A DNA stretch of 17,465 bases, from NCBI GenBank assembly GCA_946479025.1, contig CAMLDM010000014.1, positions 1-17,465 on the forward strand, read 5' to 3'. The notes beneath the pieces were generated by a model that was not told where the DNA came from, searched no databases, and saw nothing but the letters and a program-made list of their open reading frames with translations. This document shows, one piece after another, positions 238 through 3,946 of the stretch. A program made the position numbers and the translations under genes. How positions within the stretch are numbered: position 1 is the stretch's first letter; the number at the start of each line of letters is the position of its first letter. The stretch comes from an uncultured Candidatus Saccharibacteria bacterium. Its GTDB lineage: Bacteria > Patescibacteria > Saccharimonadia > Saccharimonadales > CAMLKC01.

Positions 238-2634
238 ATGAGCGAAATTCATGTGGTAAAGCGCGACGGCACCCGCGAACCATTTGACGCCAATAAGATC
301 AACCTCGCGCTGGTAAAGGCCAGTGAGGGGCTTCCTGATCAGATACAAAAAGTTGTTCAAGTAGCTACGGAGCTGCAGCTGACATTATTTGACGGCATCA
401 CCAGCGAACAGCTCGACGAAGCGGTGATTCACACAGCGCTGCAAAACGTAAAGGACGACCCGGACTTTGATAAGATCGCGGCACGTTTGCTCCTCAAGAA
501 CATATACAAAAATATTCTTGGTGACTACGAAAACGAAACGGAGCTTAAAAAGCTTCACGAGCAGAAATTTCCAGAATATCTGAAGCAGGGCATTAAAGAC
601 GGCCTGCTTGACGAGCGTATGAACGGCAAGGTATTCGACATCAAAAAGCTGGCGGGAGCGCTCGACCCGTCCCGAGACCAACTGAGCAAATACCTCGGTG
701 TCGTGACTAATAAAAACCGCTATGCACTCCGCAAGCAAAGCGGAGCGCCTATCGAAGTTCCACAGTTTACCCACATGCGTATTGCCATGGGACTCAGCTT
801 CAACGAGGAAAACCCAACCGAAGCGGCTATCGACTTTTACCGCCACATGAGCAACCTCGACTACGTGCCGGGTGGTAGCACCCGCGTAAATGCCGGCGGT
901 TCGTTTCCGCAGCTTTCCAACTGCTTCCTTCTCGAGGTGCAGGACGACATGGAATCGATCGCAAAGGGTGTTCGCGACGTGATGTGGATTGCCAAGGGTA
1001 CCGGTGGTATCGGTATCAGCCTGAACAAGCTGCGCGCTGCGGGCTCGCCAGTAAAGACAACCAACACCGAAAGTACCGGCCCGATTCCATTCATGAAGAT
1101 GATCGATACGGCGCTATTTGCCGTCAGCCGTAAGGGTAAAAAAGCCGGTGCCGCCGCGCTGTACATGGAAAACTGGCACCTCAACTTTCCGCAGTTCCTC
1201 GATCTCAAACAGAACTCTGGGGACCCGTACCTTCGTACGCGCCTCGCCAACACCGCTGTATTCATTAGCGACGAGTTCATGAAACGCGTCTCGAAAGATC
1301 AGGACTGGTACCTGTTTGACCCGGCAGAGGTCTCTGACCTTCCGGAACTCTACGGCGAAGAATTCTCAGCTCGCTACAAAGAATATATCAAAAAAGCTGA
1401 AAAGGGCGAGATGCGCGAATTTTCAAAGGTGAAAGCCCGCGAACAGTTCCGCCAGATTCTTATCACGCTTCAGGCAACCAGCCATCCGTGGCTGACCTGG
1501 AAGGATACGATCAATGTTCGTGCACTGAACAACAACACTAGTACAATCCATCTTTCCAACCTCTGTACGGAAATCACTTTACCACAGGACAAAGACAATA
1601 CTGCCGTTTGCAACCTCGTAAGCATCAACCTGGCGGCGCACCTGAAGGAAGACAAAACCTGGGATTGGGATCGTCTGGCAGCTAGCACGCGAAGCGCCAT
1701 TCGTCAGCTCGATAACCTCTGTGATATCACCAACACGCCGATTCCGGAGGCTATGAACTCCAACCTGCAGAACCGTGCGCTCGGGCTTGGCCTGATGGGC
1801 TTTACCGATGTGACCGAGAAGCTTGGTTACAGCTACGAAAGCGAAGAAGCATATGATCTGATCGACCAGCTGACGGAATTCATCAGCTACAACGCTATCG
1901 ACGAATCGGCTGATATGGCAAAAACCCGCGGCGCCTACCCGACGTTTAAGGGAAGCGGCTGGAGCAAGGGCATCCTGCCGATCGACACGCTCGACGAGCT
2001 GGCTGCTGACCGCCATGTGAAGGTCGACGTTAATCGCAAAACGCGCCTGGATTGGGAAACACTTCGTGCCAAGGTGAAAAAGGGTATGCGAAATGCCACG
2101 CTTATGGCAATCGCACCGACCGCAAACATTGCGCACGTTGCAGGCACTACGCCAGGCATCGATCCGCAGTTCGCGCAGATCTTCTCGCGCAGCACGCTGA
2201 GCGGCAAGTTCCTTGAAGTGAACGTGAACCTCGTGAACGACCTTAAGGAACTTGGCATCTGGGACGACGTGAAAGAAGAAGTGCTTCGTACTCAGGGCGA
2301 CGTCCAGCAGATCGAGGCGATCCCGCAGCGAATAAAAGATGTATACAAAACGAGCTTCCAGCTCAGCCCGTACGCCTTCATTGAAGTAGCGGCGCGCGCG
2401 CAGAAATGGGTCGACCAAGCGATTTCCCGCAACATGTATCTGGAAACACGCGACATCGATGAATATGTGAACATTTACAGCACCGCCTGGAAAAAGGGAC
2501 TCAAAACGACGTACTACCTGCACGTTAAACCGCGCCACCAGGCAGAGCAGAGCACGGTGAAAGTTAACAAAGCCGAAACCGGTACCGGCCCGCGCAAAGC
2601 TGGCTTCGGATTCGCAAAGAAGCAAACGGTTTAA
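238..2634 (+). CDS. nrdA: Class I ribonucleoside-diphosphate reductase, alpha (large) subunit lacking the C-terminal cysteine tail
   Basis: Reduces ribonucleoside diphosphates to the 2'-deoxy forms for DNA synthesis, together with NrdB. The 798-residue protein has one N-terminal ATP-cone (about residues 4-95), which normally senses ATP/dATP. The 10-stranded barrel core carries the expected catalytic residues: C229 (SNCF) and C458 (AVCNL) as the disulfide pair, NLCTE at 441-445 with the thiyl C443, and the radical-transfer pair Y759-Y760. After these tyrosines only 38 residues remain and none is cysteine, although family members end with a Cys pair that re-reduces the active site. That motif appears in the next gene. 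The ATG at 238 is preceded by AGGGGA at 225-230, 7 bases away. It is the first full gene of an operon with the 59-codon gene and nrdB, probably under NrdR. The function is clear; the truncated tail is the anomaly. Confidence 0.96.
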   Translation: MSEIHVVKRDGTREPFDANKINLALVKASEGLPDQIQKVVQVATELQLTLFDGITSEQLDEAVIHTALQNVKDDPDFDKIAARLLLKNIYKNILGDYENETELKKLHEQKFPEYLKQGIKDGLLDERMNGKVFDIKKLAGALDPSRDQLSKYLGVVTNKNRYALRKQSGAPIEVPQFTHMRIAMGLSFNEENPTEAAIDFYRHMSNLDYVPGGSTRVNAGGSFPQLSNCFLLEVQDDMESIAKGVRDVMWIAKGTGGIGISLNKLRAAGSPVKTTNTESTGPIPFMKMIDTALFAVSRKGKKAGAAALYMENWHLNFPQFLDLKQNSGDPYLRTRLANTAVFISDEFMKRVSKDQDWYLFDPAEVSDLPELYGEEFSARYKEYIKKAEKGEMREFSKVKAREQFRQILITLQATSHPWLTWKDTINVRALNNNTSTIHLSNLCTEITLPQDKDNTAVCNLVSINLAAHLKEDKTWDWDRLAASTRSAIRQLDNLCDITNTPIPEAMNSNLQNRALGLGLMGFTDVTEKLGYSYESEEAYDLIDQLTEFISYNAIDESADMAKTRGAYPTFKGSGWSKGILPIDTLDELAADRHVKVDVNRKTRLDWETLRAKVKKGMRNATLMAIAPTANIAHVAGTTPGIDPQFAQIFSRSTLSGKFLEVNVNLVNDLKELGIWDDVKEEVLRTQGDVQQIEAIPQRIKDVYKTSFQLSPYAFIEVAARAQKWVDQAISRNMYLETRDIDEYVNIYSTAWKKGLKTTYYLHVKPRHQAEQSTVKVNKAETGTGPRKAGFGFAKKQTV

Positions 2635-2654
2635 GAAATTAGGGGGATAAGAAA

Positions 2655-2834
2655 ATGGGTATGAACGCAAACACAATCATCAGCGACGAAATGACACTGG
2701 AAGAAAAGTTGGCCGCGATTGACTTGGCCATGAAAAACGCACAGGAGCAGGCAAACGAAGAGGCGCAGGCGAACGGCACGATCGCCGCACCGCTCGACCC
2801 GGCCGATCTCACCATGTGCGAAGGCTGCCAGTAG
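2655..2834 (+). CDS. 59-aa protein ending in CEGCQ; probable detached redox tail of the RNR large subunit
   Basis: Small gene between nrdA and nrdB, 20 bases after the nrdA stop, in another reading frame. ATG at 2655 has its own Shine-Dalgarno (AGGGGGAT, 2641-2648). The product has an acidic helical stretch (about residues 12-40, with LEEKLAAIDLAM), then a short Ala/Pro/Asp-rich linker, then the last residues MCEGCQ. Class I RNR large subunits normally end in such a cysteine pair, which passes electrons from thioredoxin to the active-site disulfide; the NrdA here lacks it. My inference is that this peptide supplies the pair in trans, its helix perhaps docking on NrdA. A single sequencing error cannot explain the split, since the nrdA frame stops at 2632-2634 and the frame of this gene is closed by TAG at 2640-2642. 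The ATG at 2661 is an alternative start. The alternative role is a small thiol carrier or metal-binding peptide. Confidence 0.8.
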   Translation: MGMNANTIISDEMTLEEKLAAIDLAMKNAQEQANEEAQANGTIAAPLDPADLTMCEGCQ

Positions 2835-2890: not shown

Positions 2891-3946
2891 ATGGCAGGCA
2901 TTCTCGGAACCGGTATCCAAGACGGATTACTTCTTAAACCAATCAACTACCAGTGGGCGTACGACCTGTACAACCAGGCTGTGGCGAACACCTGGTTTCC
3001 AAACGAAATCCAGCTTGGCCAGGATCTTTCTGACTGGAAGAAAATGAGCGACGAGGAGCGTCACGCCGTTGAGTTCCTGATGAGCTACTTCAACCCGAAT
3101 GAGCTGCTGGTAAACAAGGCGCTCGCCTTCGGGGTTTATCCGTACGTGAACGCGGCCGAATGTCACCTGTACCTCGCCAAGCAGATGTGGGAAGAAGCCA
3201 ACCACTGCATGAGCTTCGAGTATGTGCTCGAGACGTTCCCGATCAACCGTGACAAAGCGTACGAAGCGCACGTCACGACTCCAAGCATGGCGCGCAAGGA
3301 AGAATTCGAGACCAAGTTCATCAAGCGCATGACCGAGGAAACGCTCGACATCACCACGACGGAAGGCAAGAAGGACTTCATCCGCAACCTCATCGCCTAC
3401 AACATCATCCTCGAAGGCATCTGGTTTTACAGCGGTTTCATGGTGGCGCTTTCATTCCGTCAGCGCAATTTGCTGCGTAACTTTGGCTCGCTGATTGACT
3501 GGGTTGTTCGCGATGAAAGCCTGCATCTTAAGTTCGGCATCAATCTGATCCTGACCGTGCTCGAGGAAAACGAAGATCTCCAAACTGAGGAATTTGCCGC
3601 TGAAATCAAGCAGATGATCCTTGACGGTGTCGAAATGGAAGAAGCGTACAACCGTGACCTGCTGCCAAACGGCATCCTGGGCCTGAACGCTGACTACATT
3701 AACCAGTATGTGAAGTACCTGGCCGACCGTCGCCTGGAAGAACTCGGTTTCGATGCGCATTACAAAGTGTCCAACCCGGCCAAATGGATGGCGGCTGCAA
3801 ACGACACGCTCGAGCTGGTGAACTTCTTTGAAAGTACCAACACTAGCTATGAGGTGAATGCCGGCACATCGTCTGCAAAGCCTGGCCAGAGCCCAAGCGC
3901 CGACCGCGACGAAAACGATCCGAATAACAGCATTCTCAATCAGTAA
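2891..3946 (+). CDS. nrdB: Class I ribonucleotide reductase, beta (radical-generating) subunit, Phe at the radical-Tyr position
   Basis: Ferritin-like small subunit (351 residues) whose dimetal site makes the oxidant that starts catalysis in NrdA. Metal ligands are readable: E71, E102, H105 (EANH), E175 (LEGIWFY), E209 and H212 (RDESLH). Spacing E71-E102 is 31 and E175-E209 is 34, as in E. coli NrdB. Two substitutions matter: the position of the radical tyrosine (E. coli Y122) is F109, and the first ligand (E. coli D84) is E71. Chlamydia-type class Ic enzymes, which use Mn/Fe, show this combination; the dimanganese class Id also lacks the Tyr. A Mn or Mn/Fe cofactor is therefore inferred. Y320 fits the radical-transfer tyrosine near the C-terminus, and the tail ENDPNNSILNQ should bind NrdA. 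AAAGGA at 2872-2877 is the nearest ribosome binding site, 13 bases from the ATG, which is rather far. A terminator follows. Confidence 0.95.
   Translation: MAGILGTGIQDGLLLKPINYQWAYDLYNQAVANTWFPNEIQLGQDLSDWKKMSDEERHAVEFLMSYFNPNELLVNKALAFGVYPYVNAAECHLYLAKQMWEEANHCMSFEYVLETFPINRDKAYEAHVTTPSMARKEEFETKFIKRMTEETLDITTTEGKKDFIRNLIAYNIILEGIWFYSGFMVALSFRQRNLLRNFGSLIDWVVRDESLHLKFGINLILTVLEENEDLQTEEFAAEIKQMILDGVEMEEAYNRDLLPNGILGLNADYINQYVKYLADRRLEELGFDAHYKVSNPAKWMAAANDTLELVNFFESTNTSYEVNAGTSSAKPGQSPSADRDENDPNNSILNQ

Follow-up and report, generated by a model that had tools for sequence, protein, structure and literature searches.

A class I ribonucleotide reductase (RNR) of a Saccharibacteria bacterium very probably has its C-terminal redox tail encoded as a separate polypeptide, a 59-residue protein called S here, which would act in trans on the large subunit NrdA. 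To our knowledge, the class I RNRs described so far are recharged by a tail on their own chain. The window, the whole 17,465-nucleotide stretch of DNA that was analysed, carries the following features.

238..2634, forward strand: nrdA, class I RNR large subunit of 798 aa, catalytic residues kept, no C-terminal cysteines
2518..2634, forward strand: cysteine-less NrdA tail, residues 761-798 plus stop, basic, terminating in GFGFAKKQTV
2641..2646, forward strand: AGGGGG, probable ribosome-binding sequence of S, eight bases before its ATG
2655..2834, forward strand: S, the putative separate redox tail of 59 aa, last residues LTMCEGCQ
2697..2771, forward strand: predicted acidic helix of S, about residues 15-39, from an AlphaFold2 model of the L001 read-through chain, transferred by alignment
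2817..2828, forward strand: CEGC codons, C55 to C58, proposed redox pair, both cysteines invariant in 39 aligned S proteins
2891..3946, forward strand: nrdB, class I RNR small subunit of 351 aa (PF00268, E=3.9e-75)

In the proposed mechanism, S docks on NrdA, perhaps through the acidic helix of S and the basic NrdA C-terminus, and its CEGC would reach the NrdA active site. There it would reduce the disulfide that each turnover leaves behind (by homology, C229 and C458), and a cellular reductant would then reduce S. An earlier note on this DNA had proposed that the tail works in trans, a proposal now supported by the homology of the peptide end to tails carried in cis, by gene orders that exclude a fusion and by stand-alone viral copies.

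The reductase subunits and S in the window

The window NrdA contains the ATP-cone, lgN and lgC domains, with PF02867, PF03477 and PF00317 all over their Pfam cut-offs. It scores 1345.9 bits against NF005101 (cut-off 988) and 664.7 against TIGR02506 (cut-off 341), and nrdB adjoins its gene; the class II catalytic subunit model TIGR02504 gives 373.6 bits, below its cut-off of 399.95. The active-site residues C229, C443, E445, C458, Y759 and Y760 are at the positions that the earlier note had given, and the 38 residues beyond Y760 are free of cysteine, as it had also stated. The protein has four cysteines in all (229, 443, 458 and 495), and the C-terminal cysteine pair that would be sought on the same chain sits on S. 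As judged from its sequence, the window NrdA is a class I homologue, yet incomplete as a one-chain enzyme.

Small subunits of class Ic have a Phe at the position of the radical Tyr, four residues after the histidine of the ExxH motif. This Phe is present in the window NrdB (WEEANHCMSF) and, across the loci having the motif, in 73 of 74, the remaining one (L024) having Ile. Of 49 genomes that carry an NrdA of the window type, called type 1 below, only 23 showed a Pfam thioredoxin, a possible reductant.

S starts 20 bases past the nrdA stop, in frame +2 relative to nrdA. The next gene in another frame, with an RBS-like AGGGGG and the C-terminus MCEGCQ, was confirmed at 2655-2834, and G-rich stretches resembling AGGGGG are found 5' of S in many loci. 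Upstream, the S frame is closed by a TAG (2640-2642) that lies 3' of the nrdA stop (2632-2634), so that the two frames cannot be joined by a single insertion or deletion; the claim that no single-base error fuses them holds.

A protein search returned 872 S homologues at E<=0.01. Among the matches listed (120 of 872), the proteins are 57-59 aa long, have no precomputed Pfam domains and, where a source gives a name, are called hypothetical protein. In an alignment of 39 S proteins, from which four further rows were left out, I22, D48, P49, C55 and C58 are invariant and KL is also conserved. The N-terminal half of S is divergent in some deep lineages (L024, L036, L051, L060, L114, L115), and the linker differs in deep lineages as well. 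The window protein has a net charge of -9, and C55 and C58 are its two cysteines. A Pfam search for a redoxin domain in S found none (best match SIMPL, E=0.079), which places S outside the thioredoxin and glutaredoxin families.

For S, the median dN/dS is 0.20 over 58 sequences, with a usable dS in 598 of 1653 pairs; for nrdA it is 0.09, with a usable dS in 70 of 1653. Kept out of this set were six loci whose S start is unclear and some lacking a clean nrdA frame. In viral S the median is 0.21 (89 of 276 pairs), and these ratios indicate that S, viral S included, is under purifying selection.

AlphaFold2 was given the L001 read-through chain, i.e., NrdA, the natural spacer and S, with 74 rows. 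The model has moderate confidence (mean pLDDT 71.6, pTM 0.76) and came as a chain without interface scores or coordinates. It is predicted to have the NrdA fold, with P. aeruginosa NrdA 5im3 as the best fold match; the S helix is placed at chain residues 818-842 with a pLDDT of about 80, and residues 757-805 are below 50.

Pairing of S with tail-less NrdA and gene order

A search of named genome records found 189 NrdA relatives, from which 80 loci were kept. By NrdA identity, 67 of these were assigned to the Saccharibacteria type (L001-L066 and L071), although the phylum is missing from some of the record titles and one (L065) is labelled Chloroflexi. Three loci (L059, L062, L066) end too soon to show S, and S is present in all 64 that have room for it. 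The pairing was also followed through 244 genomes of one Saccharibacteria class (that of G002), 49 of which have a type-1 NrdA over the family cut-off. All 49 also encode S, so the check proposed in the earlier note, whether the small CxxC ORF always accompanies a cysteine-less NrdA, came out positive at the genome level. The S profile was matched in 54 of the 244 genomes; two of the five additional matches (G300, G359) have a type-1 NrdA in pieces, two (G190, G192) are a second, type-2 peptide described below, and the last (G368) is a 22-residue N-terminal match without cysteines, perhaps due to chance. A single NrdA/NrdJ-type match was found in 47 of the 49 type-1 genomes (four each in G180 and G381; anaerobic class III excluded), so the type-1 enzyme is probably needed in these genomes.

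The NrdA tail is free of cysteine in 60 of 60 cases, comprising the window and 59 loci, with L002, L025, L028 and L058 set aside and L024 absent from the table. Among the NrdA tails of the 49 genome loci, 48 have no cysteine and one (L138) has a lone cysteine directly after the Tyr pair. Net charges are opposite in all 60 pairs, +4 to +8 for the NrdA tail and -4 to -9 for S, which would fit docking of the two.

The earlier note had expected the ORF between nrdA and nrdB. This location fails in 17 of 64 loci, where S lies beyond nrdB at a distance of 1.0-2.6 kb from nrdA; L065, where the nrdB match is partial, is not counted among the 17. With nrdB between the two genes, fusion by frameshifting is impossible in these loci, and in the two of them that were inspected gene by gene (L039, L034) further unrelated genes separate nrdA from S. 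Among the Saccharibacteria-type loci with S next to nrdA, each of the three possible relative frames is represented.

Tails in cis, other detached tails and viral copies

Related NrdAs with the tail in cis are found in the order of Leifsonia poae (genome G001). In all 14 loci L085-L098 the cis tail contains three cysteines, e.g. ...CPVDPMEALQCESCQ, and the NrdAs share 61-66% identity with that of the window across the matched region. These tails share the pattern CP.DP......C..CQ, the same pattern as in the S of deep-lineage locus L114, which ends in ACPIDPAERALCDSCQ, and the last 15 residues of S match the cis tail of these related NrdAs. By this comparison, the C-terminal end of S is homologous to the actinobacterial NrdA cis tail.

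In Microbacteriaceae, the tail takes the form of an ORF of 21-57 aa at the nrdA stop. Such an ORF was found in 13 of 13 loci in a first survey and in 30 of 31 in a larger one, made up of 29 newly obtained loci together with L081 and L082, which come from the same genomes as L076 and L068; of 68 genomes that passed the cut-off, 30 yielded loci. The exception (L264), from a 0.9-Mb genome of the family, shows neither a cis tail nor a tail ORF in the 5.4 kb of its locus. The usual junctions of nrdA and the tail ORF are TGATG, TAATG and ATGA, and relative to nrdA the frame is +2 in 23 ORFs, 0 in five and +1 in two (n=30). Where only an internal ATG is shown, a GTG upstream is the likelier start. 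When the Microbacteriaceae tail profile was run against 149 genomes of the order of G001, 12 gave a match; in 11 the match lies within frames of 458-1098 codons, as expected for cis tails, and G001 has three short ones.

A FastTree phylogeny of 61 NrdA sequences over 761 columns places 24 Saccharibacteria-type NrdAs as sister to an actinobacterial clade, with a support of 0.566 for all 24 and 1.0 for 23 of them. Within the actinobacterial clade, 12 Microbacteriaceae (0.997) are sister to eight cis-tailed NrdAs (0.993), with a joint support of 0.943. For the Saccharibacteria type 1 and the Microbacteriaceae, separate fissions and one fission with re-fusion would both fit these sequences.

A second NrdA, type 2, with about 40% identity to the window NrdA, was found in 14 genomes of the same Saccharibacteria class. 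Eleven of the 14 tails are without cysteine and three are in cis (L169, L173, L174). No partner was found near the tail-less type-2 nrdA on either strand in the 14 loci, and a pattern search was therefore run across whole genomes. In eight of the 11 genomes with a tail-less type-2 NrdA, a stand-alone ORF ending in CEACQ or CDACQ is encoded. This peptide has 32-36 aa, ...DWDKPMxCPIDPxxLxECxACQ, with a AGGAGGGT-like or similar sequence upstream, and its neighbours (L212, L213, L214, L219, L223) are recurring housekeeping genes, not nrdAB. The pattern search had matched in nine of the 11 genomes, and the sole match in G194 (L180) was rejected as a tail peptide, as were the single matches in G184 (L177) and G196 (L178).

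At E<=0.01, the type-2 peptide profile matched 16 of the 244 genomes. Ten matches are at E<1e-18 and comprise the eight genomes above together with G198 and G181; the remaining six are weak and lie within type-1 S genes. G198 has a strong peptide match and no NrdA found in its 0.4 Mb. Three genomes with a tail-less type-2 NrdA (G169, G172, G194) gave no peptide at E<=10 and, like L264, count against a tail in trans. The earlier note had named a cis-tailed NrdA together with the small protein as evidence against its proposal. This combination was encountered once, in the second NrdA family: in G181, the only NrdA found is cis-tailed (L169) and a stand-alone peptide (L219) is also encoded. In the tree, L169 stands among the cysteine-less type-2 NrdAs. 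G181 is a draft genome, and the joint presence of L169 and L219 may reflect redundancy, re-fusion or a mixed assembly.

Profile scans of IMG/VR identified S in at least 24 viral contigs (L225-L248), a lower bound from a scan with one peptide pattern, and the type-2 peptide in one (L224). A repeat with the window S protein found 10 contigs, every one among the 24, and by shared DNA the 24 fall into 11 groups. No match to NrdA or to NrdB was found in any of the 25 viral records with a tail peptide (0 of 25 for each), records that may be fragments. Ten proteins from five of the viral loci have matches that include terminase, portal, endolysin, DNA primase and RusA-like families. We infer that these viruses infect Saccharibacteria, and phages with the peptide alone presumably provide it to the host enzyme. 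A tblastn search with S in a collection of named phages ('phages') gave no match.

Further copies lie outside the nrdA loci of cellular genomes. Extra copies of the type-2 peptide were found in G181 (L220) and G196 (L222) on contigs with endolysin-like genes, the reading frame of the latter continuing beyond CEACQ. Leifsonia poae (L076) has two more short tail-like ORFs away from nrdA, of 28 and 49 aa (L289:6035-6121 and L290:6016-6165); the 49-aa ORF is close to genes with weak PrgI and EccE matches and is possibly on a mobile element. On the viral contig L259 (2892-6418), which has WhiB-like genes, S lies 5' of a tail-less nrdA and nrdB is also present. An ORF between S and nrdA there matches LAGLIDADG_3 (E=9.5e-5), which makes a homing or intein-like ORF a candidate cause of the fission. 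From these comparisons, detachment appears to have occurred more than once, in Saccharibacteria type 1, Microbacteriaceae, Saccharibacteria type 2 and one phage-like contig.

Alternative explanations, known systems and implications

S could be a small electron carrier or regulator on NrdA with a CxxC that never enters the active site. Such a role would accommodate the extra conserved helical part of S, which is not required in cis tails, and phage copies independent of NrdB suit a regulator equally well. It is nevertheless considered unlikely: the last 15 residues of S match a cis tail, NrdA minus S has no tail cysteine pair, and a redoxin domain is missing from S. An artefact, whether a sequencing error, a pseudogene remnant or a chance ORF, has a negligible probability given the 872 homologues, the dN/dS of 0.20, the invariant CxxC and the presence of S in records titled complete genome (L009, L042), even though many of the sequences are from metagenome-assembled genomes and short ORFs are easily over-read.

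A fused NrdA with a cis tail, made by programmed frameshifting or stop read-through, is also very improbable. It draws on the Microbacteriaceae, where overlap of the ORF with the nrdA stop is frequent and one frame predominates (23 of 30), and a minor fused product may be made there; their frames vary too, however (five at 0, two at +1), and the type-2 and viral copies are distant from nrdA or without it. For the window and the Saccharibacteria, fusion by either route was rejected, as the window S frame is closed between both genes, all three frames occur, and nrdB intervenes in 17 of 64 loci. The preferred explanation thus remains a detached redox tail that acts in trans.

Class I NrdA in two polypeptides is known in another form. 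The genes-in-pieces NrdA of Aeromonas phage Aeh1 is reportedly cut inside the catalytic part due to a homing endonuclease; the window NrdA, likewise a class I enzyme in two polypeptides, has its catalytic part whole. In the cis-tailed actinobacterial NrdAs (L085-L098), the NrdA core and the tail end are homologous to those of the window, but the tail is on one chain with the core.

The nearest known case is the split class II RNR NrdJa/NrdJb, described for Pseudomonas aeruginosa and relatives, where the main role of NrdJb is disulfide exchange according to the authors and NrdJb is needed in vivo (PMC4520616, PMC9669993, PMC5704485). A later survey names the split among class II enzymes (PMC9669993). 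In these accounts, as would be the case for NrdA and S, a separate protein bears the cysteines that pass electrons to the catalytic subunit. The system they describe is B12-dependent and class II, and NrdJb is a folded cysteine-rich domain of 229 residues; the window enzyme belongs to class I and has an NrdB, and the protein apart from it is 59 aa long (21-57 aa in Microbacteriaceae) with one CxxC. With two cysteines in 59 aa, S is unlike the six-cysteine separate domain of the NrdJb type. In the class II NrdJd, an array of cysteines at the C-terminus of one chain serves to reduce the active site on another chain (PMC5704485); there, unlike in NrdA/S, the tail and the active site belong to a single kind of polypeptide.

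Searches of open-licence PubMed Central, a body of text that leaves preprints and most subscription papers outside, brought up no account of a class I RNR whose tail is a separate protein. Searches there on RNR together with Saccharibacteria or Microbacteriaceae likewise listed nothing on a detached tail. Class II thus provides the known precedent for a redox part on its own, whereas a separate class I tail, its repeated detachment and its viral copies are, as far as found, undescribed.

On balance, the evidence leans towards the class I redox tail being a recurrently detached, exchangeable module, which would have become detached in several lineages, relocated to sites distant from nrdA and acquired additional copies, both on phage-like contigs and elsewhere. 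The peptide that phages carry alone (~35-66 residues) would then serve as a minimal auxiliary gene for recharging or taking over the host RNR, and the tail would be a diffusible dithiol carrier, not a tethered arm. Annotation easily misses ORFs of 21-57 aa at the nrdA stop, and RNR inventories may therefore list such enzymes as tail-less. With a detached tail, the tail step, which is hard to follow with a tethered arm, would become measurable by adding, titrating and mutating a small protein. Judging by the viral copies, a single tiny gene might allow a phage to influence the DNA-precursor supply of its host.
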